Assembly: GCA_030610655.1 (NCBI GenBank) | Contig: JAUWRG010000007.1 | Span: 1 to 42,129, forward strand | Reading direction: 5' to 3' | Length of the DNA: 42,129 nt | Origin: Dehalococcoidia bacterium | GTDB lineage: Bacteria > Chloroflexota > Dehalococcoidia > E44-bin15 | In this document: positions 6,260 to 35,900 of the stretch, piece by piece | How positions within the stretch are numbered: the stretch's first letter is position 1 | Layout: every line of letters starts with the position of its first letter | Program-made: the position numbers and the translations under genes | Notes under the pieces: generated by a model | Seen by the model: only the letters and a program-made list of their open reading frames with translations | Told to the model about the DNA's origin: nothing | The model's database searches: none

Positions 6260-6344
6260 ACTCAGATTCTAGCACAAGCCTGGGCAGTTGAGAATACTTG
6301 ACACAAACTGGCTAAAAAAACATACTAGCTCGATGGAGGGAAAG

Positions 6345-7232
6345 GTGGAACCACTCAGAACACTATTATCTGTCCCTAGCAATCGACAAAATATGATAGA
6401 AAAGGCAGGCAGTCTGCCCACCGATGTTCTCGTCCTGGACCTGGAAGACTCAGTGCCTGCAGCAGAGAAAGCCAATGCCAGAGCCATGGTAAGAGATGCC
6501 ATCGCCGGCCCATCTCTGAAGGGGCAAATGGTCTTTGTTCGCATTAACTCCATAGGTAGCGGGTTAGCGGAAGAGGATCTGGAGGCGGTGATTACGCCAG
6601 GTATCGATGGTATCAACATTCCCAAGCCCAAGTCAGCGGATGATATAAAGAAAGTTGAGGCGATCGTCGAGCGGTTGGAAAAAGAGAGAGGGATCGAAAA
6701 GGGCCATATTAAGCTCACTCCCTGGGTGGAGACCGCAAAGGGACTCATTAATGCCTTCGAGATCGCAAGCGCCTCGCCCAGGATTGTGGGCATCATCTTC
6801 GGCGCTGAGGATTTCACTCTGGACACAGGCATGCAGCGCACCGAAGGGGAAGATGAGCTTCTTTATCCCAGGACTATGGTGGTCGTCGCTGCCAAGGCTG
6901 CCGACGTAATAGCAATAGACACCCCCTATAACAATTTTAGAGATGATGAAGGGTTGATTAAGGAGGCAACGCTAGCACGAAGGCTTGGCTTTGAAGTCAA
7001 ATACATAATTCACCCCAGCCAAATAGAGCCGGTAAACCAGGCTTTCCGCCCCACATTTGAGGAGGTGGAACAGGCCAGGAGAATTGTGGAAGCATTTGAG
7101 GCGGCCGAGGCCCAGAGCTTCGCCTCCACCTCCGTTGATGGCAGGATGATCGATATCCCCCAAGCAAACAGGGCGCGAAAGCTGCTCATGGTGGCGGATT
7201 CCATTGAACGCAGAGAAAGAACCACGAGATAA
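6345..7232 (+). CDS. HpcH/HpaI-CitE family CoA-ester lyase
   Basis: The ORF opens at 6288, but a GTG at 6345 with GGAGG 5 nt upstream gives VEPLRTLLSVPSNRQNM, the usual family start, so I place the start there (295 aa). Seen: VLVLDLEDSVP, VRINS, GINIPKPKSADDI, WVETAKGLINAFEI (catalytic/metal Glu), FGAEDFTLDTG (metal Asp) and VKYIIHPSQIEPVN. These are the TIM-barrel motifs of citrate lyase beta, malyl-CoA, methylmalyl-CoA and citramalyl-CoA lyases. It would cleave or form a (methyl)malyl- or citramalyl-CoA; the substrate cannot be read from sequence. No CitD/CitF genes are nearby, which argues against citrate lyase. An acyl-CoA carboxyltransferase gene follows at 7600. Confidence 0.85.
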   Translation: MEPLRTLLSVPSNRQNMIEKAGSLPTDVLVLDLEDSVPAAEKANARAMVRDAIAGPSLKGQMVFVRINSIGSGLAEEDLEAVITPGIDGINIPKPKSADDIKKVEAIVERLEKERGIEKGHIKLTPWVETAKGLINAFEIASASPRIVGIIFGAEDFTLDTGMQRTEGEDELLYPRTMVVVAAKAADVIAIDTPYNNFRDDEGLIKEATLARRLGFEVKYIIHPSQIEPVNQAFRPTFEEVEQARRIVEAFEAAEAQSFASTSVDGRMIDIPQANRARKLLMVADSIERRERTTR

Positions 7233-7276
7233 TACTGCTGATCTGGGCCAACTGGATAAGGATGTTCAAAGATTGG

Positions 7277-7353
7277 TAGGGTGGGTGGAGCGAAGCGAAA
7301 CCCACCATAAATGAAGGCGGTGGGTTTGCCCCTTTACGGTAGAACCCACCCTA
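7277..7353. repeat. Palindromic intergenic repeat
   Basis: TAGGGTGGGT (7277-7286) and its exact complement ACCCACCCTA (7344-7353) bound a segment that contains inner GGTGGG/CCCACC pairs and GGAGCGAAGCGAAACC. This resembles the widespread GTGGGTTTCGCTTCGC-type REP/MITE repeats of many bacteria. It lies in the 367-bp gap between the CitE-like and carboxyltransferase genes. The rest of that gap holds no gene I can see. GGAGGG at 7591-7596 is the ribosome-binding site of the next gene. Confidence 0.7.
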
Positions 7354-7599
7354 CAATAACTTATCCCGAACGAAGTTGCCCGTTCCGGTAGGGGCGTTCA
7401 ATTGAATGCCCTTACTATTTCATAGGTTTCAGGGAAAGTCCAAAAGGGACACCTCTAGCGGGGGCCTGAGGGTGCCCACCAGGAATACACCTCGCAACGG
7501 GTGGGCAAACATGGGATTGCACCGCATAATCTCGGTTGCGTTTTGAGGGTCAGCATAATAAAATAGGCGTGATACAGTGTACAAAACATGGAGGGATAA

Positions 7600-9150
7600 A
7601 TGGCAATTGAACACAAAATAGAGAATCTGGCCCAACTCAGAACGCAGTCAAAACTAGGCGGAGGCCAGAAGCGGATCGAGGCTCAACATGAGAAGGGAAA
7701 GCTTACCGCCAGGGAGCGCATCGCTCTTTTCCTTGATGAGGGGAGCTTTATGGAGCTCGACGCCTTTGTTACTCATCGTGCTACAGAGTTCGGCCTTGCC
7801 GATAAGAAATTCCTGGGTGACGCTATAGTTACCGGATATGGCAAGGTAAATGGGAGGCTCGTTTACCTCTTCGCTCAAGATTTCACCGTTTTTGGAGGAT
7901 CGCTGTCGAAAGTGGTGGCAGAGAAGATATGTAAGGTCATGGATCTGGCAGCCAAGAACGGGGCCCCTTTTATCGGACTGTTAGATTCCGGTGGAGCAAG
8001 AATCCAGGAGGGAGACGACAGCCTCGCAGGATATGGGGACATATTCTACCGTAATACCATATATTCTGGAGTGATCCCACAGATCTCGGTGGTCATGGGA
8101 CCTGCCGCTGGGGGGGCGGTATATTCACCAGCGATCACCGATTTCATCTTTATGGTGGAAGGAACAGGGCAGATGTATATCACCGGTCCTGATGTGATCA
8201 AAGCGACCACTGGCGAAGAGGTAACCCACGAAGACCTCGGAGGGGCGATGGTTCATGCCGAAACAAGCGGTAATTGCCACTTCGTCGCTGAGAATGATGA
8301 GGAATGCCTGAAGATGGTGCGCCAGCTTCTCAGCTACATTCCTCAGAGCAACAGGGAAACGACCCCCTTGGTACAACCAACAGATGACCCCAATAGAATG
8401 GATGAGGAACTCCTCCATATTATTCCAGATGATCCTACTAAACCCTACGATATGAAGGACATCATCCGGAGAGTGATAGACAATGGTGAATTTATGGAGG
8501 TTCATGAGAACTATGCCCCCAACATTATCACCGGCTTTGGCAGACTCAATGGTCAATCGGTGGGCATCATTGCCCAGCAGCCCTCGATGGCAGCAGGGTG
8601 TCTCGATATCGATGCCTCAGATAAAGCCGCCAGGTTTGTGCGTTTCCTAGATTGCTTCAATATCCCCATAATTACCTTCGTCGATGTCCCTGGATACATG
8701 CCCGGTGTTGAACAGGAATATGGGGGCATCATCAGGCATGGAGCGAAGGTGATCTTTGCCTACGCCGAGGCTACCGCTCCCAAAATTACCACCATTACCC
8801 GCAAAGCCTATGGCGGTGCTTATGTAGCGATGAGCAGCAAGCACCTCGGGACCGACATAAACTATGCCTGGCCCACAGCAGAGATTGCAGTGATGGGGCC
8901 AGACGGTGCGGTGAACATCATCTACAGAGATGCTATCAAAAATTCAGAGAACCCTGAGGAAACTCGCAAGAAACTCGTTGCCGAATACAAAGAGAAGTTC
9001 GCCAATCCCTATGTAGCCGCAGGCAAGGGATACATCGATGATGTCATCGACCCCAGGGAGACACGTCCCATGCTGATAAATGCCTTGGAAATGCTCCAAA
9101 ACAAGCAGGACTCACTCCCTCCCAAGAAGCATTCGAACATCCCTCTCTAG
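7600..9150 (+). CDS. Acyl-CoA carboxylase/decarboxylase carboxyltransferase subunit (propionyl/methylmalonyl-CoA type)
   Basis: 516 aa, full length. It moves CO2 between biotin and an acyl-CoA (propionyl-CoA to or from methylmalonyl-CoA). Seen: [54 protein letters not shown] (first CoA/biotin oxyanion region), [57 protein letters not shown] and the C-terminal ARG-like [10 protein letters not shown]. It matches PccB/MmdA. No biotin carboxylase or biotin carrier gene adjoins, so the partner subunits lie elsewhere. If membrane-linked (MmdA type), it would use a sodium-pump partner not present here. Good GGAGGG site before ATG. Confidence 0.93.
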
Positions 9151-9831: not shown

Positions 9832-10239
9832 ATGAGAATAGAGATTTCAACTGAGACACTGTACAGTGATTTTGTCAAGAAGGTTGAGGCTATCAGCGAG
9901 CAAACGCTCATCTCTTGTTATCAATGCGGCAAGTGCTCAGCAGGGTGCCCCATGTGCTTCGCTATGGACCTACTTCCAAGTCAGATTATCCGATTGGCGC
10001 AATTAGGGTTGGAAGATGATATCGCCAAGGCAAACACCATCTGGATATGTGCTTCATGCATCACCTGCTCGGTTCGTTGCCCCAAGGGAGTGGACTTAGC
10101 TAGGGTGATGGAAGCCCTAAGGCTTATCACTTCGAGGAAGAATATCGATCAAGTACAAATACCAGAAATCCCTAAGGAAACCATCGCCCAACTTCCCCAG
10201 GTTGCCATGGTCGGAGGCTTCAGGAAGCTTACTGCTTGA
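9832..10239 (+). CDS. hdrC: Heterodisulfide reductase subunit C-like (first copy)
   Basis: 135 aa, soluble. Two [4Fe-4S] sites are seen: CYQCGKCSAGCP (Cys 29, 32, 35, 39) and CASCITCSVRCP (Cys 73, 76, 79, 83). The spacing is that of HdrC, which relays electrons between HdrA and the catalytic HdrB. AAGGAGG lies 11 nt before ATG. It is the first gene of the eleven-gene Hdr/Frd run and is followed by hdrB after 10 nt. The C-terminal 30 residues are poorly conserved, as in HdrC generally. A second hdrC lies at 19423. Confidence 0.92.
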   Translation: MRIEISTETLYSDFVKKVEAISEQTLISCYQCGKCSAGCPMCFAMDLLPSQIIRLAQLGLEDDIAKANTIWICASCITCSVRCPKGVDLARVMEALRLITSRKNIDQVQIPEIPKETIAQLPQVAMVGGFRKLTA

Positions 10240-10249
10240 GGAGAAAAAG

Positions 10250-11131
10250 ATGAGTCTGAGCTATTATCCAGGATGCACCCTAAAGACAAAAGCCAAGAAC
10301 GCGGAGGATTCTGCAATCGCCGCTATGGCAGCGCTGGGGATAGAGTTGGTGGAATTACCAAGGTGGAACTGCTGCGGGACGGTGTATTCCTTTGCCGGCG
10401 ATGAAGAACTACACCAGTTGGCTCCAGTTCGTAATCTCATCAGGGTGAAGGAAACGGGTGGCGACAGAGTAGCAACCATCTGCTCCTTCTGTTATAACAC
10501 GTTGAAGAGAGCCAACCTGCTGGTAACCAGCAATCCTGAGAAGATGCACACTATCAATACCTTCATGGAGGAAGAGATAGACTATGAAGGTGATGTTGAA
10601 GTGGTTCACCTTCTGGAGGTATTGAGGGACGATATAGGGTGGGAAACCATCGCTGAGAAGGTGCAGGTCCCCCTGACTGGACTGAAAGTGGCACCCTACT
10701 ACGGATGCACCCTGCTCCGACCACAAGAAATAGCTATAGATGATGTGGAAAGACCCACCATAATGCACGATTTGCTCAAAGCTCTGGGCGCTGACGTTGT
10801 AGACTTCCCCTACGCCACCGAGTGCTGCGGCTCTTATCAAATTATAAGCAATCCAGATTATGTTTCGCAGCGTGTCTGGGATATTCTGAGTTCGGCAATG
10901 CGTAGGAAAGCCGATGCAATAGTCCTGAGCTGCCCGCTTTGCGATGCCAACCTCGGTCAAACGCAGAAGGAGCTGATGCAAACGCACAGCGAGTTCAAAG
11001 GAATACCGATACTCTATTTTACCCAGCTTCTCGCTCTGGCACTGGGACTGGATCCTGAGATTTGCCGGCTTGAGCTGAACTACGTAGACCCACGACCACT
11101 ACTGGAAAGTAAGGAACTATTGAGGCAGTAA
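10250..11131 (+). CDS. hdrB: Heterodisulfide reductase subunit B-like (first copy)
   Basis: The ORF track starts at 10202, but ATG 10250, behind GAGGAG, gives MSLSYYPGC, the normal HdrB start (293 aa). Two CCG domains are complete. The first has Cys 9, 31 residues, then CCG at 41-43, and later CSFC. The second has YYGC, ECCG and CPLC. In HdrB these bind two noncubane [4Fe-4S] clusters that cleave heterodisulfides or similar disulfides. The family also reaches into other CCG-domain Fe-S oxidoreductases, so the substrate in a bacterium without CoM/CoB is unknown. Followed after 1 nt by hdrA, consistent with a tight complex. Confidence 0.92.
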   Translation: MSLSYYPGCTLKTKAKNAEDSAIAAMAALGIELVELPRWNCCGTVYSFAGDEELHQLAPVRNLIRVKETGGDRVATICSFCYNTLKRANLLVTSNPEKMHTINTFMEEEIDYEGDVEVVHLLEVLRDDIGWETIAEKVQVPLTGLKVAPYYGCTLLRPQEIAIDDVERPTIMHDLLKALGADVVDFPYATECCGSYQIISNPDYVSQRVWDILSSAMRRKADAIVLSCPLCDANLGQTQKELMQTHSEFKGIPILYFTQLLALALGLDPEICRLELNYVDPRPLLESKELLRQ

Positions 11132-11132
11132 C

Positions 11133-12860
11133 ATGGAACGGATTGGTGTTTTCGTCTGCCATTGTAAACTTATGGCATATATGGACACTGGGACAGTTGT
11201 GGAGGCCATCAGTAAGAAACCAGACGTAGTTCATGCTGCAGCTTACGAAGATCTGTGCCTTGCGCCAGGGCTGGAGCAGGTCAAAGACACCATTAAGAAC
11301 GAAAAGCTAGACGGAGTATTGATCACCAGTTGCTCCCCGGTTCTTCACCAAGAGGTCTTGCGCCAGGCTGTAACCGCCGCTGGCCTTGAGGCTCACCAGA
11401 TGCAAGCTGTCGACATCAGAAGCCAGAATGGCGTCAAAGAGAATACAGAGAGAGCTATTGAGGCCATCTCGAGCGCCTTGGACAAGCTGAAGGCAAGCCT
11501 GCCCCCTGTGCGCACCAAGGTGCCTATCACCAAGAAGGTCCTGGTTATCGGCGGTGGCATTGCCGGGATCCGAGCATCTTTGGACATCGCTGATGGTGGC
11601 TACGAGGTTATTCTGGTGGAAAGGACCCACAGCATCGGAGGACACATGATCCAGTACTCGGAGACATTCCCCACACTGGACTGCCCCCAGTGTATTGAGA
11701 CCCCGCTGATGACGGATACCGGCCAGCACGATAACATAACCATCTATGCCTATAGCGAGATTGAGGAAGTCACGGGAAGTATCGGAAAGTTCAAGGTTAA
11801 GATAAGAAGAAAGGCAGCCTATGTCGATTGGGACAAGTGCAATGGCTGTTTAATGTGCATAGAGAAGTGTCCACCCAGGGTCTTGTCCGAATACGAACGA
11901 TATCTGGATATGCCAAAGAGACAGGCCCATCGCAGGGCAATTTGGGTCCCTCACGCTCAAGCCGTCCCCATGAGACCCATCATAGATAAGGATCATTGCC
12001 TTTACTTCACCAAAGGGAAATGTCGGGTATGTGAGCAGGCATGCCCCAGTAAGGCTATCGACTTCACTCAACAAGAGAGCTTCGTAGAAATAGAAGTTGG
12101 AGCAATCGTTGTAGCTTCAGGCTTTGACCTCATGCCCAAGAGTGCGATTAAAGAATATGAACTGGACAAAGACATCCTCGAGGGCATTGAGTTCGAGCGC
12201 ATCCTTTGTCCGGCAGGCCCCACTGCAGGCAAAGTCATAAGGCCATCCGATGGCAGGGAGCCAAAGACAGTGGCATTCATCTCCTGCTGCGGCTCCCGCG
12301 ACCCAGAGCATGGCGTCCCCTATTGCTCCAAGGTGTGCTGCATGTACTTGGTGAAGATGGCACTTCTATACATGCACGCTGTTCACGACGGTCAAACATT
12401 CATCTTCTATATAGATATTCGTACCACAGGTAAGGGGTATGAAGAGTTCGTTCAAAGAGCAGTGACGGAGGATAACGTCCTCTATCTCAGGGGCAAAGTA
12501 TCCAAAATTTTTCGGGATGGCGATAAGATCAAGGTCTGGGGCGCAGATACATTGACCGGAAAAAGAATAGAGATGGCTGTTGACCTTGTTGTCCTGGGGA
12601 TGGCGATGCTGCCCAGCGAGGGAGTAAAAGAGCTTGCCGATAAACTGGGTATCGCCACTGACGAACATGGATTTATGGTTGAGCTACATTCCAAGCTTCG
12701 TCCTATGGAGAGCTCAGTTCCCGGGATATACCTCGCTGGCTGCTGCCAGGGACCAAAAGATATCCAAGATACAGTGGCTCAGGGAGGAGGAGCAGCAAGC
12801 AAGGTTCTGGCACTATTCGCTCAAGATGAAGTTATATTGGAAGAGGCGGCAGTACGCTAA
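11133..12860 (+). CDS. hdrA: HdrA-like flavoprotein, short form
   Basis: 575 aa. The N-terminal domain has VCHC (9-11) and later single Cys residues (42, 67) as in the HdrA atypical-cluster domain. The FAD site GGGIAG is at 140-145, and CPQC at 184-187 lies near the flavin. An inserted ferredoxin carries CNGCLMCIEKCP (236-246) and a second site with Cys 289, 297, 300 and 304. The HdrA hallmark CGSRDPEHG..YCSKVCCMY follows. It lacks the C-terminal two-cluster ferredoxin of the next gene product, so it may hand electrons on through a partner. FAD in HdrA is the bifurcating flavin in archaea; whether this copy bifurcates is not shown. Its TAA overlaps the next ATG by one base (TAATG). Confidence 0.92.
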   Translation: MERIGVFVCHCKLMAYMDTGTVVEAISKKPDVVHAAAYEDLCLAPGLEQVKDTIKNEKLDGVLITSCSPVLHQEVLRQAVTAAGLEAHQMQAVDIRSQNGVKENTERAIEAISSALDKLKASLPPVRTKVPITKKVLVIGGGIAGIRASLDIADGGYEVILVERTHSIGGHMIQYSETFPTLDCPQCIETPLMTDTGQHDNITIYAYSEIEEVTGSIGKFKVKIRRKAAYVDWDKCNGCLMCIEKCPPRVLSEYERYLDMPKRQAHRRAIWVPHAQAVPMRPIIDKDHCLYFTKGKCRVCEQACPSKAIDFTQQESFVEIEVGAIVVASGFDLMPKSAIKEYELDKDILEGIEFERILCPAGPTAGKVIRPSDGREPKTVAFISCCGSRDPEHGVPYCSKVCCMYLVKMALLYMHAVHDGQTFIFYIDIRTTGKGYEEFVQRAVTEDNVLYLRGKVSKIFRDGDKIKVWGADTLTGKRIEMAVDLVVLGMAMLPSEGVKELADKLGIATDEHGFMVELHSKLRPMESSVPGIYLAGCCQGPKDIQDTVAQGGGAASKVLALFAQDEVILEEAAVR

Positions 12861-14818
12861 TGGAGAAAAGGATTGGTGTTTTTGTCTGTCACTGCGGCTT
12901 GAACATCGCCGGCACCGTGGATGTGGAGCAGGTTGTGGAGGCGGTCAAGGATTATCCTGATGTGGTCTATGCTGGCAACTACATCTATATGTGCTCCGAC
13001 CCCGGGCAGGAACTGGTGAGGACGACAATAAGAGAACAAAACCTAAACGGCGTTGTGATGTCGAATTGCTCCCCCCTAATGCACGAGAAGACCTTCCGCC
13101 GCGTGGCAACCAAAGCGGGTTTAAACCCCTATCTCCTTGAGATAGCCAATATCAGGGAGGATGTCAGTTGGCCTCACGAAAACGAGAAGGAGCTAGCCAC
13201 TAAAAAGGCCATATCCATTGTCAAGATGGCAATTGAGAAGCTGAAGCGAAATGTAGAACTGACCCCCATGGTCGTCCCTCTTCATAAGAGAGCGCTAGTA
13301 GTCGGGGGAGGGATCGCTGGCATAACAGCAGCGCTTGAAATCGCTAGCGCTGGTTATGAGGTAATAGTGGTGGAAAAACTACCCTACGTAGGTGGACACG
13401 CCGCACAGCTAGCAGGAACTTTCCCCACCCTTGATCGCGTGCCGTGCCTTATGGCCCCCATGATAGCTAAAATGATCTCACATCCCAAAATAAAGGTCTA
13501 TACCAATGCAGAGGTGGACGAGGTCTCAGGCTATGTGGGTAACTTCATAGTAAAGATCAAGACAAGCCCTTCCTACATAGACGAAGGAAAGTGCAATAAT
13601 TGCGGGCTCTGTTTAGAAAAATGCCCTGTTACCTGCCCCTCCGAGTTTGACTGCGGGCTCGCTGAGAGGAAAGCTATCTATATCACACCACCGGAAACGA
13701 TGTCCCAAAAGGTGCTTATCGACCCTGGAAACTGCCTTCATTTGAATGGTGATGAGTGCCGCGCTTGTGAGGAGATTTGCCCTACAAAAGCCATCGACTT
13801 CCTCCAGCAAGGAATCACTGTGGAGAAGACAGTGGGGGCCATCATCGTGGCTACGGGATATGGACTCTGGGACAAAAAGAATATCCCCGAATATGAATCA
13901 GACCCCGATGTCATCGATGGGCTCCAGTTCGAGAGGATACTCTCACCCTCGGGTCCCACTGGAGGCGATATCCGAAGGCCGTCGGATGGCAAGGTCCCCA
14001 AGCAGATAGTGTTTATCTCCTGTTGTGGCTCCCGCGACCCAGAGCATGGCTTCACCTATTGCTCCAGAGTTTGTTGCATGTATATAGCGAAGCAGGCGGT
14101 GCTTTATAGCAGGACTGTGCCCGGCGGACAGGCCTATGTCTTCTACATGGATATCAGGTCTGATTCAAAGGGATACGAAGAATTCGTCAAGAGCGCAATG
14201 GAGGAGGAACGGGTATTGTACCTCAGAGGGAGGGTATCCAAGCTCTTCAGAGATGGAGATAAGATCAAAGTCTGGGGATCCGATACCCTGAGTGGCAAGA
14301 GTGTTGAGATCTCCGCTGACCTTGTAATCATGGCCACAGCTATGACGCCAAGAGAGGGAGCTATCGCGCTGGCGAGGAAGCTGAATGTTACCGTCGATGC
14401 CATAGGCTTCTTGACCGAAGCACATCCCAAGCTCCAGCCAGTGGAAACACTAACAACCGGCATTTATCTAGCTGGTACTGTGCAATGGCCGAGGGATATC
14501 CCAGATTCAATTGCTTCAACCGGCGGCGCAGTCAGCAAAGTGCTCTCCATGTTCTCCAGGAAGGAGCTGCTTCATGAGCCTACGATAGCTTGGCCCGATG
14601 AAGAGGTTTGCAGCGGGTGTGGGATTTGCGCCTCCGTTTGCACCTATAATGCCATAGAGATCGACCCAATAAAGAGGGTAGCAAAGGTCAATGAGGCGGT
14701 CTGTGAGAGCTGTGGTGCTTGCATTGCATCCTGCCCCTCAGGGGCGATGCGGCACAAGAACTGGAATGCAAGGCAGTTTATGGACATGATAGACATAGCT
14801 ACAGGAGCATATGTATAA
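12860..14818 (+). CDS. hdrA: HdrA-like flavoprotein, full length
   Basis: 652 aa, close to archaeal HdrA length. It has the N-terminal VCHCG domain, FAD site VVGGGIAGITAAL (about 145-157), an inserted ferredoxin (CNNCGLCLEKCP and a second site ending CRACEEICP), the hallmark CGSRDPEHGFTYCSRVCCMY, and a C-terminal ferredoxin with CSGCGICASVC and CESCGACIASCP. The motif near the flavin is TLDRVPC, so one Cys of the CxxC in the first HdrA is replaced. The two proteins may therefore differ in cluster content. Translation is coupled to the previous gene (TAATG), and the next ATG follows the stop with no gap (TAAATG). Confidence 0.93.
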   Translation: MEKRIGVFVCHCGLNIAGTVDVEQVVEAVKDYPDVVYAGNYIYMCSDPGQELVRTTIREQNLNGVVMSNCSPLMHEKTFRRVATKAGLNPYLLEIANIREDVSWPHENEKELATKKAISIVKMAIEKLKRNVELTPMVVPLHKRALVVGGGIAGITAALEIASAGYEVIVVEKLPYVGGHAAQLAGTFPTLDRVPCLMAPMIAKMISHPKIKVYTNAEVDEVSGYVGNFIVKIKTSPSYIDEGKCNNCGLCLEKCPVTCPSEFDCGLAERKAIYITPPETMSQKVLIDPGNCLHLNGDECRACEEICPTKAIDFLQQGITVEKTVGAIIVATGYGLWDKKNIPEYESDPDVIDGLQFERILSPSGPTGGDIRRPSDGKVPKQIVFISCCGSRDPEHGFTYCSRVCCMYIAKQAVLYSRTVPGGQAYVFYMDIRSDSKGYEEFVKSAMEEERVLYLRGRVSKLFRDGDKIKVWGSDTLSGKSVEISADLVIMATAMTPREGAIALARKLNVTVDAIGFLTEAHPKLQPVETLTTGIYLAGTVQWPRDIPDSIASTGGAVSKVLSMFSRKELLHEPTIAWPDEEVCSGCGICASVCTYNAIEIDPIKRVAKVNEAVCESCGACIASCPSGAMRHKNWNARQFMDMIDIATGAYV

Positions 14819-17800
14819 ATGGTAGGAGCAGTACTCGTTATAGGTGCTGGGATCGGTGGCATTAAATGCTCCTTAGATCTCGCCGAATCGGGATTCAAGG
14901 TCTATCTCGCCGACCAAAGCCCTTTTATAGGAGGAACGCTCGCCCAATTGGATAGATGGTTTCCCGACAATCACTGTGGGATGTGCAAGATACTGCCCAT
15001 CTTCTCCAGGGATGAATCCTCCCAGTTTTGCCTCCGCCGAGGACTGTATCACCCCAATATCGAGCTTTTACCCCTTTCTACTGTGAGTCAGATAGATGGT
15101 AACACCGGCAATTTCCAGGCCACTTTAAGTATCAAGCCCCGAGGGGTGAGGAAGGAGCTTTGCGTAAGCTGTGATCTCTGCGCCCAGGTCTGTCCTGTGG
15201 AGGTACCCAGCGAGTTTAACGAAGGGCTGGAAAATCGCAAAGCAATCTACCTTCGTAACCCCCTGGCAATATCCAGTGGCTATGCTATTGATTGGGGCTC
15301 GTGCACCAAATGCGGTGCCTGTGTGGAGAAGTGCCCCACTGATGCCATAGACCTGTCACAGGAAGAGGAGACGAGGAAGCTTGACGTAGGCGCCATCGTC
15401 CTGAGCGCTGGCTTTGAGGAATTCAATCCTCGACCCTGGAGTCAGTACGGTTACAAACGCCATCCTAATGTGATAACCAGCATCCAGTTCGAGCGAATGC
15501 TTAGCGCCAGCGGACCCACGGCAGGAGAAATCCTCCGACCATCCGATAATCAGCCTCCTAAGTCCATAGCATTCCTGCAATGCGTCGGCTCCAGAACTAA
15601 GGAGAGAGATTATTGCTCTTCCGCCTGCTGTATGTATGCCCTCAAAGAAGCGGTACTGGCTAAGGAGAAAAACCCTGAGCTTGATACCGAGATCTTCTAC
15701 ATGGATTTGAGAGCCTTTGGCAAAGGCTATTACCGCTATTATGAGCAGGCAAAAGGGGAGTTTGGGGTCAAGTTTACCCGCTGCCGCATCCCCACCATAA
15801 AGCAAGACCCCGCCACTAAGAATCTGTTTTTCACCGCCATAGGTGAGGATGGTGGGTTGGTGAGACGAGAGTTCGACCTAGTGGTGCTATCTGTTGGCCA
15901 AACCCCATCGCCTCGTTTCCTTGAGTTAGGCGAAGTCTTGGGCATAGAACTCAATAAGTGGGGATTTTGTAAAACACAGGAGCTTTCTCCTACAGAAACC
16001 TCCCAAGATGGCGTATTCGTATGCGGCTCTGCCTCTGCTCCCAAAGACATCGCTGATACCCTGGTGGAAGCTAGCGCTGCGGCATGTCAGGTCTCCAAAC
16101 TGCTTTCCTCCCAGCGTGGTCAATTGATAACCACGAAAGACTATCCTGAAGAGCTGGATCTTAGCGAGGCGGAGGCACGGGCTGCTATTTTCCTCTGCAC
16201 TTGTGGTGAGGAGATCGCATCAATGCTAGATATGGAAGAGATGCTTGATTTCGCAAAAGGTCTCCCTGGTGTAGTTTATGTTGAACAAACTCCCTACCTT
16301 TGCCAAAAAGATGCCTTGGAGCAAGTGAAGGGGAAAATAAAGGAGCACGAAGTCAATCGTGTGGTCTTCGCCGCCTGTTCCGACATCACCTATGAGAAGC
16401 TTTTCATTGATGCAATGAGAGATGTGGGGCTAACCCCCTCCCTTCTAGAGTTGGTGAATTTTCGGGAGCAGCTTTGCTCGATTAATCCAGATCACAAAAA
16501 GCAGGCAATGGAAAAGGCAAAAATCCTGGTTGCTATCGCCTTAGAACGGGTTAGAACCCAAGAACCTTTGCACCTTGTCTCTCAGAATGTCGAACACCAA
16601 GCACTGGTTATTGGTGGTGGCCTGGCTGGATTGACCGCTGCTCTGTCACTGGCGGAGCAGGGTTTCGAGGTTCAGCTAGCCGAGAGAACGGCCGAATTAG
16701 GTGGTAACCTGAGGCATATTTTTTCTATCCTAGAGGGCGGCGATCCCCAAGCTCTACGCCAGAATCTAATCAAGAGGGTGGAGGAAAACCCGCTCATTCG
16801 CCTTCACACAGAAACTGAGGTCATCGAGGTCTCGGGCTATGCCGGGAACTTCGAGGCAGTCCTCAAAGACACGGACTCGACACATGAACCCATAAAGGTA
16901 GGGGCAATCATCATTGCCACCGGCGGCGAAGCCTATGAGCCCAATGAGTATTGCTATGACCAAAGCGAAAGTGTCATGACACAAGCCGAACTGGAACAGC
17001 AACTGGCCTCTGGCAAACTTGATGTCACGGAGCTCGGCTCAGTGGTGATGATTCAGTGCGTTGGTTCCAGAGACAAGGAGAGGCCATATTGCAGCCGAGT
17101 CTGCTGTTCTCAGGCAATCAAGAATTCCCTAAGTCTAAAAGAGAGAAACCCTGAGATCGACATATTTGTCCTTCATCGGGATGTTATGAGCTACGGGTTC
17201 AAAGAAGAATATTATTCTCAGGCCCGAGAAAAGGGTGTCCTTTTCGTTAATTATGACTTGGATCGCAAGCCAGAAGTGACAATCGAAGGAGAAAGGCTCA
17301 TTGTCCAGACCATTGAGCCTACAACGGGCGGCGTCCTGAAAATAGAGCCCGATTTATTAATACTGAGTACAGGAATTGTCCCCAACGATAATAATATACT
17401 TGCCCAAATGCTCAATCTGGAACTGACTGAAGATGGATTCTTCAAAGAGGCAGAGGTAAAATTCCGCCCTGTGGATTTCGTGATTAATGGTATCTTTTTG
17501 TGCGGGCTTGCCCATTCGCCGAGAGGCATCACCGAGACTATAGCTCAGGCCCAGGCTGCAGCGCAGCGGGCAGCATCTATCCTTTCCCGAGAGCGATTGG
17601 AGTCGGGGAGAGTCGGCTCTGAGGTCAATGAGAGGCGCTGCAGCGGCTGTGAGCTTTGCGTCTCAGCTTGTCCCTATAATGCGCGGTTTAAAGATACCGA
17701 TAAAGGAGTGGTTGTTGTAATTGAGGCGCTTTGTCAGGGCTGCGGCGCTTGCGTCGCCATCTGCCCTAGCGGTGCAGCAAAGCTAAGGGGATTCACCGAT

Positions 17801-17836
17801 AAGCAGGTCTTCTCGGTGATGGATGCCGTGATCTAA
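14819..17836 (+). CDS. Tandem HdrA-HdrA fusion flavoprotein
   Basis: 1005 aa. Module 1 starts directly at an FAD site (VLVIGAGIGGIKCSL, residues 5-19) without the usual N-terminal domain. It has FPDNHCGMCKILP, two ferredoxin sites (CVSCDLCAQVCP, CTKCGACVEKCP) and CVGSRTKERDYCSSACCMY. Module 2, from about residue 455, has its own N-terminal domain (LCTCGEE), a second FAD site (VIGGGLAGLTAAL), CVGSRDKERPYCSRVCC and a C-terminal ferredoxin (CSGCELCVSACP, CQGCGACVAICP). Module 2 lacks the inserted ferredoxin and the flavin-near CxxC. Such double HdrA proteins can branch electrons between two flavins. No frameshift joins the modules. Confidence 0.9.
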   Translation: MVGAVLVIGAGIGGIKCSLDLAESGFKVYLADQSPFIGGTLAQLDRWFPDNHCGMCKILPIFSRDESSQFCLRRGLYHPNIELLPLSTVSQIDGNTGNFQATLSIKPRGVRKELCVSCDLCAQVCPVEVPSEFNEGLENRKAIYLRNPLAISSGYAIDWGSCTKCGACVEKCPTDAIDLSQEEETRKLDVGAIVLSAGFEEFNPRPWSQYGYKRHPNVITSIQFERMLSASGPTAGEILRPSDNQPPKSIAFLQCVGSRTKERDYCSSACCMYALKEAVLAKEKNPELDTEIFYMDLRAFGKGYYRYYEQAKGEFGVKFTRCRIPTIKQDPATKNLFFTAIGEDGGLVRREFDLVVLSVGQTPSPRFLELGEVLGIELNKWGFCKTQELSPTETSQDGVFVCGSASAPKDIADTLVEASAAACQVSKLLSSQRGQLITTKDYPEELDLSEAEARAAIFLCTCGEEIASMLDMEEMLDFAKGLPGVVYVEQTPYLCQKDALEQVKGKIKEHEVNRVVFAACSDITYEKLFIDAMRDVGLTPSLLELVNFREQLCSINPDHKKQAMEKAKILVAIALERVRTQEPLHLVSQNVEHQALVIGGGLAGLTAALSLAEQGFEVQLAERTAELGGNLRHIFSILEGGDPQALRQNLIKRVEENPLIRLHTETEVIEVSGYAGNFEAVLKDTDSTHEPIKVGAIIIATGGEAYEPNEYCYDQSESVMTQAELEQQLASGKLDVTELGSVVMIQCVGSRDKERPYCSRVCCSQAIKNSLSLKERNPEIDIFVLHRDVMSYGFKEEYYSQAREKGVLFVNYDLDRKPEVTIEGERLIVQTIEPTTGGVLKIEPDLLILSTGIVPNDNNILAQMLNLELTEDGFFKEAEVKFRPVDFVINGIFLCGLAHSPRGITETIAQAQAAAQRAASILSRERLESGRVGSEVNERRCSGCELCVSACPYNARFKDTDKGVVVVIEALCQGCGACVAICPSGAAKLRGFTDKQVFSVMDAVI

Positions 17837-17848
17837 AAGGAGGCCGCC

Positions 17849-18277
17849 TTGCAAGAAGACGAGTTTGAACCTAATATCGTGGGTTTGCTATGTCACTGGT
17901 GTACATATACCGCTGCCGACTTGGCTGGCACTACGAGAACGCAATATCCCACCAATATCCGCCCAATTCAAACCATGTGCAGTGGAATGGTGGACCCTGT
18001 TTACGTGCTATGGGCTCTCCTCGGTGGAGCCGACGGAGTTATGATCGGGGCATGTCACCCCGCCGACTGCCACTACGTATCGGGCAACTATAAGTGTAGA
18101 AGGAAGACCGCCGTCCTTAAAAGCATTCTCAATACCTTGGGGCTCGAGGATGATCGCGTTTGGCTCTGCTGGATTAGCGCCGCTGAAGGGCAAAAGTTCG
18201 CCAATACGGTGGCCAAGATGGTCGATGAACTGAAGAAAAAGGGGCCTAACCCCATAAATGCATATTGGTCTACTTAG
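17849..18277 (+). CDS. mvhD: MvhD/FlpD-like [2Fe-2S] electron-transfer protein
   Basis: 142 aa from a TTG start, supported by AAAGGAGG 5 nt upstream. The usual MvhD cysteines are visible: VGLLCHWCTY, IRPIQTMCSGMVDP, GVMIGACHPADCHYV and KCRRK. In methanogens MvhD links hydrogenase or formate dehydrogenase to HdrA. Here no hydrogenase subunit adjoins; a FrhB/FdhB-like gene follows 9 nt later and is the likely electron donor. Intact and of normal length. Confidence 0.93.
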   Translation: MQEDEFEPNIVGLLCHWCTYTAADLAGTTRTQYPTNIRPIQTMCSGMVDPVYVLWALLGGADGVMIGACHPADCHYVSGNYKCRRKTAVLKSILNTLGLEDDRVWLCWISAAEGQKFANTVAKMVDELKKKGPNPINAYWST

Positions 18278-18286
18278 GAAGATACA

Positions 18287-19423
18287 ATGACGAGATCTGC
18301 AATATTAGAGGTTCAAAACGGAAATCTGATCGAGACCCTTAACAACCTTTGGCGTCAGCTATTGGAAAAAGGGCTTGTAGATGCCCTACTTATTCCCCAG
18401 GAGCTTCCTTCTGGAATCAATGTAGTGCAAACTCTAGTGAGCGACGTCCAGAAGCTTGAGTCCCCTAATCCCCTTTCTCCAGTTATGCCGGTAAACACGG
18501 CGAGGATCGTCTCCCAGATGACTAAGGTTACACCTAGCCCAAAGAAAGTGGGGGTGGTACTCAGATCATGCGAACTTAGGGCTCTCATCGAGTTGGTAAA
18601 ACTGAAGCAGGCATCGCTGGAGAACATAGTTTTGATAGGGATAGATTGCTTCGGCACCTATTCTGTGAAGGACTATAAGAACCTTGCCCAAGACGGTTCC
18701 TCTCCCAAAGACGCTTTCATAAAGGCGGTAAGGGAGGGAAAGGAAGACCCATCCCTGAGGCAGGTTTGCCAGATGTGCGAATACCCCATCCCTATGAACG
18801 CCGACATAACAATTGGACTGATAGGTATTGACTTTGAGAAAAGCATCCTTATCCAGGCATCCAGTACAGAGGGAGAGGCAATCCTAGAAGCCCTGGAGCT
18901 TACGGACAGCCCAGAAGCAGAGGTTACCAAGCGAGACGAAGCCATCGCCAAACTTATCGAACAACGAACTAAAAAGAGAGACGAGATTCTGGAGCAGACC
19001 CAAAAAGATATATCTGGGATAGACAATCTCATGAGGACACTCGCCCCCTGCATCAATTGTCATAATTGCAGGGATGTCTGCCCCCTTTGCTTCTGCAAGG
19101 AATGCTTCTTTGATTCACCCACCTTCGAAATGGAATCAGAGAAGTATCTGGGCTGGTCGGAGAGGAAAGGAACAATAAGGATGCCCACCCATACCCTGCT
19201 ATTCCATCTCACCAGGATGTCCCACATGGTCACCTCCTGTGTAGGATGTGGAATGTGTTATGAGGCTTGCCCTAATGAGGTACCTGTCGCCAATATCTTC
19301 CGCCTCGTTGGCCTAAATACACAGAAGATATTTGACTACGTCCCGGGTCGAAGCCTGGAGGATGAACTTCCTGTAACCACGTATCAAGAGCGCGAGCTCC
19401 TGGGCGTCCCGGAGAAATTGTGA
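18287..19423 (+). CDS. FrhB/FdhB-type Fe-S flavoprotein (F420 hydrogenase/formate dehydrogenase beta family)
   Basis: 378 aa. The N-terminal 200 residues include VGVVLRSCELRALIEL and IVLIGIDCFGTY, typical of the FrhB/FdhB C-terminal domain family. Near residues 250-275 is a Cys-rich CINCHNCRDVCPLCFCKEC, and near 320 CVGCGMCYEACPNEVP. Members couple F420H2, formate dehydrogenase, hydrogenase or ferredoxin to Hdr. No catalytic formate dehydrogenase or hydrogenase gene lies in the window, so the true donor is open. AGGAAG precedes the ATG. Its TGA overlaps the next hdrC start (TGATG arrangement), so it belongs to the same operon. Confidence 0.85.
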   Translation: MTRSAILEVQNGNLIETLNNLWRQLLEKGLVDALLIPQELPSGINVVQTLVSDVQKLESPNPLSPVMPVNTARIVSQMTKVTPSPKKVGVVLRSCELRALIELVKLKQASLENIVLIGIDCFGTYSVKDYKNLAQDGSSPKDAFIKAVREGKEDPSLRQVCQMCEYPIPMNADITIGLIGIDFEKSILIQASSTEGEAILEALELTDSPEAEVTKRDEAIAKLIEQRTKKRDEILEQTQKDISGIDNLMRTLAPCINCHNCRDVCPLCFCKECFFDSPTFEMESEKYLGWSERKGTIRMPTHTLLFHLTRMSHMVTSCVGCGMCYEACPNEVPVANIFRLVGLNTQKIFDYVPGRSLEDELPVTTYQERELLGVPEKL

Positions 19424-20007
19424 TGCAGCTTGTATGCGATCAATTCCAAGAGACAGGCGATCCCGCCTTCTCAAAGAGGGTAAAAGAGGTAAGTGAGTCT
19501 GGGCTTGAGCGCTGCTATCAATGCCTTACATGCACTCTGAGTTGCCCAGTTGCTTTCGCTATGGATTATCCCCCTCACCAGATAGTAAGGATGGTGCAAC
19601 TTGGACTCAAGGAGCAGGTGCTTAGGAGTTCCACCATTTGGATTTGTGCTTCATGCCTGAGTTGTGTTACTAGGTGTCCTAACGAAATCGACATACCACA
19701 CCTCATGGACACTTTGCACCAGATCGCGCTGCACGAGGGGGTGGCAGCCAAAGAGCCGGCGGTAGCAATGTTTCATGAGGCGTTCTTGGCTCCAATTAAG
19801 AAATATGGTCGGCAATATGAAGCGATGATGACGATTGGATATATGCTGAGGGCGAGGCAGTTCTCGCCAAAAGACCTCCTCAACAATGCCTTGCTGGGAT
19901 TCAAGATGATTACAAAACGGAAGCTGAAGCTTCTGCCTCCCCATTCGATCAAGGGGGCTAAGGAGATAAGAGGCATTTTTGAGAAAACCGAGGAGCGGGG
20001 GAAATAG
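19423..20007 (+). CDS. hdrC: Heterodisulfide reductase subunit C-like (second copy)
   Basis: 194 aa from ATG 19423, which overlaps the preceding TGA. A GTG at 19420 is a possible start. Clusters are CYQCLTCTLSCP and CASCLSCVTRCP. It is about 60 residues longer than the first HdrC at the C-terminus, with a basic helical tail (MITKRKLKLLPP). The tail has no clear membrane segment, so this is unlike membrane-bound HdrE-linked forms. It directly precedes hdrB2-frdB-frdA and probably feeds the reductase module. Confidence 0.9.
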   Translation: MQLVCDQFQETGDPAFSKRVKEVSESGLERCYQCLTCTLSCPVAFAMDYPPHQIVRMVQLGLKEQVLRSSTIWICASCLSCVTRCPNEIDIPHLMDTLHQIALHEGVAAKEPAVAMFHEAFLAPIKKYGRQYEAMMTIGYMLRARQFSPKDLLNNALLGFKMITKRKLKLLPPHSIKGAKEIRGIFEKTEERGK

Positions 20008-20009
20008 GC

Positions 20010-20864
20010 GTGCGGTATAGCTTCTACCCCGGGTGCACCCAGGAGTCAACGGCAAAGGAATTCGGAGATTCCAGCAGGGCGGTTTGCCGTGAGTTGGGAA
20101 TAGAACTGAAGGAGATTCCCGACTGGAACTGCTGCGGTGCCTCCTCCGGCCATTTCTTAAACGATGACCTCTCTCATGCTCTGCCGGGAAGGAATCTAGC
20201 AATTGCAGAGAGAGAAGGGCTTGACACTGCTGTTGTCTGCGCTGCATGTTATTTGAGGCTGAGGACGACTCAGCACGAGGCGAAGAATTCGCCTGAGTTC
20301 AGAAAACGGCTGGAAGACCTGATCGGCATGCCCTATGAGGCAAAATATGACGTGAGGCATCTGCTGGATATTTCGGTCAACGAGCTTGGAATTGAAGAGA
20401 TAGAGAAGAGAGTCAAGCACTCGCTTACAGGACTCAAAGTCGTGGCATATTATGGATGTTACCTGGTCCGCCCGCCCAAGATCGTGGCATTTGATGATCC
20501 CGAGAACCCCACCACAATGGACAGACTACTACAAGCCCTGGGAGCAGAAGTGCTCGATTGGGGAGCCAAGGTGGATTGTTGCGGGGGGAGCCTCACCCTC
20601 ACAAAAACAGGAATTGTTGAAAACCTGGTTAAAGGCCTCGCTGCGAGCGCACAGGAGGTTGGAGCTGAAGCAATCGTCGTTGCCTGTCCCATGTGTCACG
20701 CTAACCTAGACGGAAGGCAGTCGGGGAAAGATAAGCTGCCAATCCTTTATTTCACCGAGCTTATGGGACTTGCTTTCGGCGTAAGCAAAGGGGAAACCAA
20801 GGGATGGTTTCAAAAGCACCTTGTAAGCCCGTTTGCTTTGTTAGCCTCGCATAGCTTATTATAG
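20010..20864 (+). CDS. hdrB: Heterodisulfide reductase subunit B-like (second copy)
   Basis: 284 aa from GTG 20010, giving MRYSFYPGC, 2 nt after hdrC2. Both CCG domains are complete: YPGC, WNCCG, CAAC; and YYGC, VDCCGG, CPMC. It differs clearly from the first HdrB (about half the residues differ by eye), so the two copies are old paralogs. In archaeal thiol:fumarate reductase an HdrB-like part is fused to the Fe-S subunit (TfrB). Here this HdrB is a separate gene ending 20 nt before the FrdB-like gene, so the same parts are present but split. Confidence 0.92.
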   Translation: MRYSFYPGCTQESTAKEFGDSSRAVCRELGIELKEIPDWNCCGASSGHFLNDDLSHALPGRNLAIAEREGLDTAVVCAACYLRLRTTQHEAKNSPEFRKRLEDLIGMPYEAKYDVRHLLDISVNELGIEEIEKRVKHSLTGLKVVAYYGCYLVRPPKIVAFDDPENPTTMDRLLQALGAEVLDWGAKVDCCGGSLTLTKTGIVENLVKGLAASAQEVGAEAIVVACPMCHANLDGRQSGKDKLPILYFTELMGLAFGVSKGETKGWFQKHLVSPFALLASHSLL

Positions 20865-20884
20865 AATTGCAAGGAGGACTGTGG

Positions 20885-21676
20885 ATGAGTAGCACAGAGA
20901 CCAAAAATGAGACGGCAACTGAGGAGATAGCAGCAGAGATAAAGGGGAAACTTATCCCTATATATATCATGGGGCACAAGTATGAGGTTCCCGAGACACT
21001 TACCATCATGAAAGCAATGGAATATGCTGGCTATAAGTTCATTCGGGGCTGCGGCTGTCGTGATGGGAAATGCGGGGCATGCTCCACAGTCTATCGCAAA
21101 CCAGGGGATTACCACATATATAACGCGCTAGCTTGCCAAACTCAGGTTGAACCCGAGATGTACCTGACACAGATCCCTTTCTATCCCGCCAATAGGGCTA
21201 TCTATAACTACGAAGAGCTGACACCTGTTCCTGAGGAGATATTCAAATTATATCCTGAGTTATTCCGCTGCGTTGCCTGCAATGCCTGCACCAAGATTTG
21301 CCCTAAAGATATCCCAGTTATGGATGTTGTCTCTTATCTAAAGCAGGGCAATATTACCAAAGCTGCTGAACTTTCCTTCGACTGCATTCAATGTGGGTTG
21401 TGTGCCAGTAGATGTATGGGGGAATTGCCCCAGTATCACATTTTCCAACTTGCGAGAAGGATTTATGGAGGCAAAATTGCCCCCAAGGCGAAGCATTTAG
21501 CTGAAGCAGTAATAGTGATTAAAGATGGTAAATATGATGAAATGCTACATGAGTTGATGAACACGGATGAGAAGGAGCTTAGAAAGATATATGAGGAGCG
21601 AGAGCTAGAACCAGAGATAACCGGTGAGGATTGGAGACCGAAGGACAGAAAGTTTCTTCTCGAAGTGGAGAGTTAA
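20885..21676 (+). CDS. Fumarate reductase/succinate dehydrogenase-type iron-sulfur subunit
   Basis: The ORF track begins at 20867, but that codon precedes the ribosome-binding site; ATG 20885 after AAGGAGG gives 263 aa. Seen: a plant-type [2Fe-2S] site (GCGCRDGKCGAC and a later LAC), CVACNACTKICP and CIQCGLCASRC. This is FrdB/SdhB-like but has two [4Fe-4S]-type motifs and no [3Fe-4S] pattern typical of SdhB. The N-terminal part matches the first half of TfrB. It would carry electrons from HdrBC to the flavoprotein encoded 17 nt downstream. No SdhC/SdhD membrane anchor gene is present, so the enzyme is predicted to be cytosolic. Confidence 0.85.
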   Translation: MSSTETKNETATEEIAAEIKGKLIPIYIMGHKYEVPETLTIMKAMEYAGYKFIRGCGCRDGKCGACSTVYRKPGDYHIYNALACQTQVEPEMYLTQIPFYPANRAIYNYEELTPVPEEIFKLYPELFRCVACNACTKICPKDIPVMDVVSYLKQGNITKAAELSFDCIQCGLCASRCMGELPQYHIFQLARRIYGGKIAPKAKHLAEAVIVIKDGKYDEMLHELMNTDEKELRKIYEERELEPEITGEDWRPKDRKFLLEVES

Positions 21677-21693
21677 CTTTATAAGGGGGGATT

Positions 21694-23364
21694 ATGGCTT
21701 ATACAGAGGAGCTTAAAAATCTAATCAAGGTTGTGGAAAAGACCAGGCCAGAACGTGTGGAAACAAAGCGAATGGGTGGAGGTTTTCCTCCTATGTCGCT
21801 AGAGGAACGCGCTGATATTTTGAAATATCATCCTGATTTCAAGGAGGAAGGGCGGAGGGAGATTAAGATAGGACCAAGCAAGGGCTATAGAATACCCAAT
21901 GAGATGGTTGATCTTCTAGAGGCTAGAAGCAGGGTTGACCCTGATGCAATCGATCTTTCTCAGATCGATTATGAGACAGATGTGCTGATAATTGGAGGAG
22001 GTGGGGCTGGCACCGCCGCTGCCCTCCTTGCTCAAGAGCATGGGGCTAAGGTCATCATAGCAAACAAGCTTCGCCATGGTGATTCCAATACCATAATGGC
22101 TGAGGGTGGGATTCAAGCAGCGAGCAAACTGGAGAAGGATTCCCCTGCCTATCACTATCTAGATACAATAGGAGGAGGACATTTCAAGAACGACCCTGAG
22201 CTACTTTTTACACTGGTTACTGAAGCCCCTGATGTTATCCAGTGGTTGGAAGACCTTGGAACTATGCTTTACAAGTTTCCCGATGGAAGACTGGAAACAT
22301 TACCTCTCGCTGGGTTTTGTCGGAAACGAGGACACACCGCCGGTGATACTACTGGTATGGAAATTATGCGAACAATACGCGATGAGGCGAGAAACCGCCC
22401 CGATGATATCACCGTGCTCGAGTTTTCGCCGGCAGTGGAATTAATCCTCAACGAGCAAGGGCATTGCGCTGGCGTCGTGCTCTACAACATGGAGACCGAG
22501 GAGTATTTCATTGCTAAGGCGAAAGCAGTAATCATGGCCACCGGAGGATGTGGTAGACTCCATATTCAGGGGTTTATGACCACTAATCACTATGGCGCCA
22601 CCGCTGATGGCTTGGTCTTGTGCTACAGAGTAGGAGTAGGGCTTCGCTTCCTTCATACGGTTCAATACCACCCCACAGGAATTATTTTCCCTGAGCAGAT
22701 AGAAGGTGCCTTAGTTACTGAGAAATTCAGAGGCGCAGGAGCCAATGTGGTAAATATCGATGGGGAGCAGTTCGTTTATGAGCGTGAGCCCCGCGATGTA
22801 GAGTCATCAGCTATTATTCGGGAATGCATGGAAAGAGGTAAAGGGGTCCCTACTCCCATTGGTAGGCTTGGAGTTTGGCTTGATTCACCTATGATTGACA
22901 TACTTCTCGGTGAGGGAACAGTGAAGAGACAATTCCCAGGGAAAGTCAATCAATTCGAGCGATATGGAATCGATATCTCAAAAGAGCCCATGTTGATCTA
23001 TCCAACTCTTCATTATCAAAATGGCGGGCTGGAATATAAGTTCAGCGGCGAAACCTCAGTACCTGGACTCTTTGTGGCTGGGGAAGTGGGCGGAGGGGTT
23101 CATGGGGAGAATCGGCTCTTCGGCAATTCGCTGTTAGATGTCTTGGTCTTCGGCAGAATCGCCGGTACAAACGCCGCCACCTATGCCCAGGAGAAAGCCA
23201 AGGAGGGGAAGCTGACTCTGGAGCATGTTAAGGCCTATCATAAGCAGCTAGAGGAGGCGGGAATAGTTACTGACAGGGTAGCCCCCATGCTCCTCCCCGA
23301 TTACACCGATCCCAAAGTTAGAGAGCGGCAGCTCACCGCCCACTATGTGGGGACCTTAAGGTAG
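21694..23364 (+). CDS. Fumarate reductase-type flavoprotein subunit (TfrA-like), C-terminally short
   Basis: 556 aa. The first 95 residues are an unusual extension. The FAD site is IIGGGGAG (about 100). Catalytic motifs present: HPTGIIF, TEKFRGAG (Arg), HYQNGG (about 440) and HGENRLFGNSLLD (Arg). At the covalent-FAD His site (RSHT in FrdA) the sequence is DSNT, so FAD should be noncovalent, as in TfrA. The protein stops about 80 residues after the last catalytic Arg, so the usual C-terminal helical domain is missing. The core geometry is intact, and fumarate or a similar enoate is the likely substrate; direction cannot be told. It ends the Hdr/Frd run. Confidence 0.85.
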   Translation: MAYTEELKNLIKVVEKTRPERVETKRMGGGFPPMSLEERADILKYHPDFKEEGRREIKIGPSKGYRIPNEMVDLLEARSRVDPDAIDLSQIDYETDVLIIGGGGAGTAAALLAQEHGAKVIIANKLRHGDSNTIMAEGGIQAASKLEKDSPAYHYLDTIGGGHFKNDPELLFTLVTEAPDVIQWLEDLGTMLYKFPDGRLETLPLAGFCRKRGHTAGDTTGMEIMRTIRDEARNRPDDITVLEFSPAVELILNEQGHCAGVVLYNMETEEYFIAKAKAVIMATGGCGRLHIQGFMTTNHYGATADGLVLCYRVGVGLRFLHTVQYHPTGIIFPEQIEGALVTEKFRGAGANVVNIDGEQFVYEREPRDVESSAIIRECMERGKGVPTPIGRLGVWLDSPMIDILLGEGTVKRQFPGKVNQFERYGIDISKEPMLIYPTLHYQNGGLEYKFSGETSVPGLFVAGEVGGGVHGENRLFGNSLLDVLVFGRIAGTNAATYAQEKAKEGKLTLEHVKAYHKQLEEAGIVTDRVAPMLLPDYTDPKVRERQLTAHYVGTLR

Positions 23365-35641: not shown

Positions 35642-35900
35642 TCTCTCACCGTCGCAACTCGTTCGGTCACAACATTACAGGCCTACTCCCTAACGCGCCA
35701 CACATTCTGACGTTTCGTGCAACCTGTCATTAGGGTCCTGAGGCTAACCCATGGTTATGATTGGCATTGGCCAAAACTAATTCCTCATTGAATTATACGC
35801 CCACCAAGGTGTAAGATGAGGATTGATTATGTAGGCTACGTACTTCATACAATTATCGTCGTATTTGAAAAATAGGGAGTATGAATTGGGGATTGCGTTT

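Follow-up and report, generated by a model that had tools for sequence, protein, structure and literature searches.

Complementary HdrA modules in a Dehalococcoidia operon, putative one-armed heterodimers of a proposed soluble electron-bifurcating fumarate reductase

The tandem and fused HdrA pairs of ANME are complementary in their N-terminal domain and Cys197, and a heterodimer has been proposed for them (Chadwick et al. 2022, PMC9012536). Here we describe an operon in a 42,129-nt stretch of a Dehalococcoidia genome (contig JAUWRG010000007.1; the whole stretch is called the window below), which resembles the ANME HdrA3/HdrA4 fusions and the tandem HdrA5/6 and 12/13 in its paired modules with complementary N-terminal domain and Cys197. 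In the ANME fusions, however, the N-terminal domain belongs to the N-terminal half and Cys197 to the C-terminal one, whereas the order in the window fusion is reversed. Unlike ANME, the window operon holds a pair of separate HdrA genes (A1/A2) and a fusion together, along with SdhAB and two HdrBC.

The fusion is also similar to type II HdrA (classes A3/A4; PMC12054007), which has two thioredoxin-reductase (TrxR) domains per chain, and the type II clusters likewise contain MvhD and an FdhB/FrhB-like protein, sometimes with another HdrA (PMC12054007). That study dealt with archaea and proposed F420H2 as donor (PMC12054007), whereas no F420 biosynthesis genes were found in the genome of the window and its operon is without a molybdopterin subunit. 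The HdrA of the MetVF-HdrABC-MvhD methylene-THF reductase of Moorella and Sporomusa has its halves in the same order as the window fusion (PMC9430772). Its first TrxR half in Moorella contains the inserted ferredoxin and GltD, the second half lacks the inserted ferredoxin but has a C-terminal one, and in Sporomusa E and K are kept by the first flavin only (PMC9430772). In these enzymes the partner is MetVF, not SdhAB, and no second HdrA pair is described (PMC9430772); the window, in turn, lacks GltD.

In domain content, ligands and FrhB/MvhD-type input the window system is like the HdrABC-MvhAGD, Elp-Hdr and Fdh-Hdr-Fmd complexes (5odc, 8rvu, 7bkb), but in these HdrA is a symmetric homodimer that has two arms and two cores. 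With the thiol:fumarate reductase TfrAB it shares an SdhA-like flavoprotein and a CCG-type partner; in contrast to TfrAB, the cut-offs for TfrA and TfrB were missed, and the window has separate HdrB, HdrC and SdhB genes as well as HdrA bifurcation modules. Heterodimeric or fused HdrA is already published as a kind. Added here are a bacterial test of the partner rule, a K409 loss confined to the half with the N- and C-terminal cluster domains (the arm), the link to SdhAB, and an A1/A2 stage in which only the C-terminal ferredoxin has been lost. A limited search of the open literature yielded no description of a Dehalococcoidia operon combining an HdrA fusion with SdhAB.

Gene order and HdrA modules

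The source genome (1.68 Mb, 99.8% complete) contains a tight run of eleven genes on the forward strand (9832-23364; intergenic gaps -4 to 17 nt) in the order hdrC1, hdrB1, hdrA1, hdrA2, double hdrA, mvhD, FrhB/FdhB-like, hdrC2, hdrB2, SdhB-like and SdhA/TfrA-like; all gene coordinates of the operon given here refer to this strand. The first gene (9832-10239, 135 aa) is hdrC1-like, as judged from two [4Fe-4S] motifs (Fer4_8/Fer4_17) and its operon position. It is followed by an hdrB1-like gene (10250-11131; TIGR03288, 172 bits; CCG domain) with both CCG motifs complete (CCG/CxxC twice). After a gap of 1 nt hdrA1 begins (A1, 11133-12860, 575 aa), overlapping by 1 nt with hdrA2 (A2, 12860-14818, 652 aa), and the double hdrA (14819-17836, 1005 aa) is joined to the latter with 0 nt between them. 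Alignment to HdrA divides the fusion into a first half, FM1 (residues 1-452, 14819-16174), and a second half, FM2 (residues 453-1005, 16175-17833). An earlier note on this DNA had described a short HdrA, a full HdrA and a 1005-aa tandem fusion in one operon; its coordinates and lengths were right, and all three match HdrA profiles.

Scores against the HdrA profile NF040770 were 563 (A1), 706 (A2) and 849 bits (fusion), below the NCBIfam equivalog cut-off of 1100, and those against NF041778 were 437-685 bits compared to a cut-off of 1400. Judged by these scores, A1, A2 and the fusion are relatives, not equivalogs, of the two families. All three also matched solved methanogen HdrA (5odc and others), with E-values down to 1e-180 for A2. 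We used methanogen HdrA 5odc as alignment reference, and the numbering E356, K409, Cys194 and Cys197 is taken from it (source Methanothermococcus thermolithotrophicus according to the PDB entry, M. wolfeii according to Chadwick et al.). In this alignment a TrxR-type FAD domain, the HA2 cysteines and E356/K409 are present in 4/4 modules, and the fusion combines two TrxR domains on one polypeptide, as in type II HdrA.

The modules differ in their other parts. A1 has the N-terminal domain, FAD domain, inserted ferredoxin, HA2 cysteines and E355/K408 and, as the earlier note had also observed, no C-terminal ferredoxin, which A2 does have. A2 (E358/K411) comprises the full domain set, i.e. N-terminal domain, FAD domain, inserted and C-terminal ferredoxin. 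FM1 has the FAD domain, the inserted ferredoxin (15143-15361), the HA2 cysteines and E225/K276 and is without N-terminal domain and C-terminal ferredoxin. FM2 carries an N-terminal domain with four Cys (16178-16561), the HA2 cysteines, E726/K768 and the C-terminal ferredoxin (17612-17818), and lacks the inserted ferredoxin as well as Cys194 and Cys197. The domain losses of FM1, the loss of the inserted ferredoxin from FM2 and the functional second Cys retained in the RVPC motif of A2 go beyond what that note had reported. For the fusion, an AlphaFold model (pLDDT 79.5, pTM 0.79) matched known HdrA in Foldseek, with the loop around the CGMC motif of FM1 among its least certain parts (block means 40-53).

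Cys197 and the N-terminal domain of the partner

The CxxC site comprises residues 194-197 of methanogen HdrA, the first Cys being Cys194 and the second Cys197. The motifs previously named for it are indeed located there: CPQC in A1 (residues 184-187, 11682-11693), RVPC in A2 (193-196, 13436-13447), CGMC in the fusion (53-56, 14975-14986) and none in FM2, where the aligned residues are DPQAL. By alignment Cys197 is retained in A1, A2 and FM1 and absent from FM2; in A2 an R replaces Cys194, and the second Cys of RVPC is Cys197. In methanogen HdrA, Cys197 crosses the dimer and is a ligand of the N-terminal cluster of the partner subunit (PMC9012536), so that its absence is informative about the partner rather than about the flavin next to it. 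This is the pattern in the fusion, in which FM2 is without Cys197 and FM1 without the N-terminal domain needing that Cys.

To sample further pairs we used loci on genome contigs along with 60 regions of genomes belonging to the same class, with a single pairing criterion: a first module without and a second module with C-terminal ferredoxin, less than 400 bp apart. After dropping identical sequences, 93 pairs were obtained, of which 72 share a reading frame and 21 are separate genes. In 88/93 the N-terminal domain is absent from the first module and Cys197 from the second; in the other 5/93 (window A1/A2, L010, L013, L017, L026) the first module has the N-terminal domain and the second has Cys197. 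Mixed combinations occurred in 0/93 adjacent pairs; the published idea of an unequal-pair heterodimer has thereby been tested on bacterial sequences with 0 exceptions. The two features are complementary in the window fusion and in 72/72 distinct fused pairs. Among the split-gene pairs only, the counts are 5/0/0/16 (Fisher p = 5e-5, relatedness ignored), and the arm is without inserted ferredoxin in 8/21 of them. Four stand-alone full HdrAs retain all parts. The same fusion recurs at 40-93% identity in many genomes and is therefore not a chance product. Two such double-HdrA fusions even stand in tandem (L073 and L074; G138:C89, G368:C1).

One split pair, L070, looks transitional and is the most informative individual example. 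Its A1 begins directly at the FAD domain, without the N-terminal domain, and its A2 reads RIPG where relatives have RVPC; on the module tree this A2 is the sister of the L010 A2 (RPAC).

The earlier note had read the CxxC next to the flavin as a hint at flavin role. This hint survives in part for Cys194, which is present in 93/93 cores, i.e. the first modules of the pairs, and in 0/93 arms, with R at position 194 in every A2 retaining Cys197, but not for Cys197, for which we rejected a local redox switch because it is a ligand of the partner's cluster. The distribution of Cys194 is also what speaks for a redox-active dithiol beside the flavin, the presence or loss of which would set the role of that flavin. 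However, Cys197 is reported to ligate a cluster of the opposite subunit, and RVPC in A2 is no CxxC, yet Cys197 is held in just those pairs whose other member possesses the N-terminal domain. A dithiol therefore appears very unlikely to us.

The four modules are mutually 29-49% identical and fall into separate clades, which rules out a recent duplication; the recent, undiverged duplicates that would have spoken against split roles in the earlier note were not found. A1 and A2 form sister clades, separated before the lineage of the window arose. In the tree of split pairs the five cases with N-terminal domain and Cys197 are one clade, and equal-rate parsimony therefore counts the co-variation as one change, while a loss-only reading of the same tree gives five changes. 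Several independent co-losses presuppose a symmetric HdrA as ancestral. On the module tree, several A1/A2 pairs appear to go back to independent duplications (L014-16/L071; L068), an argument for repeated loss.

Selenoproteins are known from the HdrA family. Core modules of L073, L087, L103, L104, L105, L111 and L029 have an in-frame TGA exactly at position 197 (e.g. NDCSMUILSPK), which suggests selenocysteine as the trans cluster ligand, a role that the position would fit. Contig C86 of the window's own genome encodes a further split core/arm pair of 941 and 559 aa (L030:7856-10681 and 5961-7640, both on the minus strand). In the N-terminal CHU motif of its arm there is an in-frame TGA, with a hairpin predicted behind it; a selenocysteine is plausible here, as the genome has selB and tRNA-Sec matches.

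Bifurcating sites and pairing of the modules

E356 and K409 are used to tell bifurcating from non-bifurcating HdrA flavins. Their equivalents are present at 4/4 flavin sites of the window, FM2 included, so that on the residues alone all four would count as bifurcating. We did not accept this assignment because of the K409 losses in arms. While both residues are present in 72/72 fused cores, the fused arms have K409 in 40/72 (lost in 32/72) and E356 in 58/72; the HA2 relay-cluster cysteines are kept in 71/72. On the tree, K409 was lost from arms in 13 (Fitch) to 15 (loss-only) separate changes. Confined to the arm, this loss offers a way to tell the bifurcating flavin in a double HdrA, where the E/K test can mislead. 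In the residue comparison around each FAD of the window that had been proposed earlier, the CxxC differs between the modules, while E356/K409 and the HA2 cysteines do not.

In published structures the N- and C-terminal HdrA domains make up a mobile arm together with the MvhD-type subunit, and this arm works on FAD' and HA5' in the opposite subunit (PMC12350162). The arm parts of the fusion are on FM2 and the inserted ferredoxin is on FM1, which together with the uneven retention of K409 makes FM1 the likely bifurcating site and the FM2 flavin a likely relay or structural one. The suggestion that some flavins bifurcate and others relay is in this way supported for the fusion by core and arm domains and the uneven E356/K409, though not on the basis of the CxxC. 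For A1/A2 this reading is weaker, since the inserted ferredoxin, E and K are all preserved in A2 too. FM2, with its E356/K409, and A2, with its inserted ferredoxin, may be bifurcating sites as well. Taken to its end, this would mean that A1, A2, FM1 and FM2 all split electron pairs in up to four bifurcation events, as the residues would allow and as has been proposed for both type II HdrA sites (PMC12054007) and, according to the discussion in PMC9430772, for the benzoyl-CoA reductase complex of Geobacter. But FM2 has neither an inserted ferredoxin nor a partner arm, and fused cores, unlike the arms of the same family, have never lost K409. We consider four bifurcating flavins unlikely.

We think it probable that A1-A2 and FM1-FM2 are one-armed heterodimers and that the whole is most likely a soluble electron-bifurcating fumarate reductase. 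A1 would pair with A2, and FM1 with FM2, tied together in one chain. One HdrA dimer would be divided into a core with FAD, inserted ferredoxin and Cys197 and an arm with the N- and C-terminal cluster domains, and this division would lead to the CxxC differences. At the core, the FAD would bifurcate, the inserted ferredoxin would pass the low-potential electron to ferredoxin, and the HA2 cluster would lead towards HdrC/HdrB. From the arm module, the FAD of the core would borrow the C-terminal ferredoxin and the N-terminal cluster domain together with the docked MvhD. Cys197 would persist in an arm only where there is still an N-terminal domain in the partner for it to ligate, and would otherwise be lost. 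Having no arm to serve it and no inserted ferredoxin, the flavin of the fusion arm would at most act as a relay.

Alternatively it might be that A2 is an ordinary homodimeric HdrA and A1 a separate truncated homodimer, giving three independent HdrA assemblies, as A1 and A2 of the window each have an N-terminal domain and Cys197 and could self-pair. This is improbable in view of the 16 split pairs whose first gene is without the N-terminal domain: the second gene there lacks Cys197, and its product could not form a canonical homodimer. Moreover, A1 of the window and its relatives is without C-terminal ferredoxin, and A1 and A2 stay adjacent. From these features we infer the physical pairing of A1 with A2 and of FM1 with FM2.

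Electron donor and acceptor

Electrons would enter through an FrhB-like and an MvhD subunit, encoded directly behind the fusion, and the high-potential branch would run through HdrC2-HdrB2-SdhB-SdhA. The mvhD-like gene encodes a [2Fe-2S] adaptor (17849-18277; FlpD PF02662, 159 bits). It is followed by the putative electron-input subunit (18287-19423; 9t1s_M 1e-38, ElpB 8rvu_E 1e-28, FdhB 7bkb_E 5e-26), an FdhB/FrhB/ElpB-type protein. Genes for F420 synthesis were not detected, however: neither CofD (TIGR01819) nor CofE (PF01996) had a match in the 99.8% complete genome. F420 as electron donor is therefore unlikely, and we dropped it as unsupported. In L010, NuoE-, NuoF- and NuoG-like genes are located between hdrB1 and hdrA1 (L010:4161-7155) and would provide an NADH input. 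In other relatives A1 contains a long insertion (alignment gaps near 490 residues) with a second FAD-domain match, which we take as GltD-like and another NAD(P)H route. The window's operon has neither the Nuo-like genes nor the insertion.

The distal part of the operon consists of an hdrC2-like gene (19420-20007; TIGR03290, 80 bits), an hdrB2-like gene with both CCG motifs complete (20010-20864; TIGR03288, 159 bits), an SdhB/FrdB-like gene (20867-21676) with [2Fe-2S] and two ferredoxin motifs (Fer2, Fer4; weak TfrB/SdhB matches) and a gene for an SdhA/FrdA/TfrA-like flavoprotein (21694-23364, 556 aa). The two HdrBC pairs match the two cores in number. The SdhA-like protein has the HPTG, HYxxGG and NRLxxNSL catalytic motifs of fumarate reductase and succinate dehydrogenase flavoproteins as well as the FAD fold (PF00890, 242 bits; alignment to SdhA 7d6v/6lum), but with 329 bits remains below the cut-off of 718 for the TfrA equivalog NF004900. 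The operon ends with sdhB-sdhA also in L010, L013, L017 and L018. Directly upstream of the operon, L018 has genes for malic enzyme, two malate dehydrogenases and both fumarase subunits, and in L010 a malate dehydrogenase and one fumarase subunit are encoded at the operon. A class II fumarase-family protein is encoded in the genome of the window along with several genes for methylmalonyl-CoA mutase, in agreement with a succinate/propionate pathway.

From this gene content we infer that the product would be a soluble bifurcating fumarate reductase or, working in reverse, a succinate dehydrogenase. Fumarate reduction, with an E0' of about +30 mV, offers ample driving force for bifurcation from NADH. 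An acceptor other than fumarate, with SdhA/SdhB repurposed and HdrB reducing a disulfide or passing electrons elsewhere, is a less favoured but serious possibility. It would agree with the complete CCG motifs in both HdrB, with the SdhA score below the TfrA cut-off and with L025, where acyl-CoA dehydrogenase, HdrD-like and ETF genes (L025:2519-6593) precede the HdrA set and no SdhAB match was found downstream, suggesting that the high-potential module is exchangeable. Fumarate is favoured by the fumarase and malate enzymes that L018 and L010 encode next to the operon and by the conserved SdhA motifs. If the link to fumarate is true, fumarate reduction would allow these small-genome Dehalococcoidia a membrane-free reduction of ferredoxin.

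More tentatively, A1-A2 and FM1-FM2 might work in series, each with its own HdrBC, in an F420-free soluble fumarate-reducing complex in which one fumarate would serve two ferredoxin-reducing bifurcations, the one-armed heterodimers having evolved repeatedly from a symmetric homodimer by co-loss of the N-terminal domain and the trans-Cys.

About 680 nt upstream of the operon, genes for a CitE/HpcH-like lyase and a carboxyltransferase (MmdA/PccB type) are encoded on the same strand (6288-9150). Further downstream, the window contains a gene for an Eco57I/MmeI-like DNA methyltransferase of 1042 aa (35865-38993).
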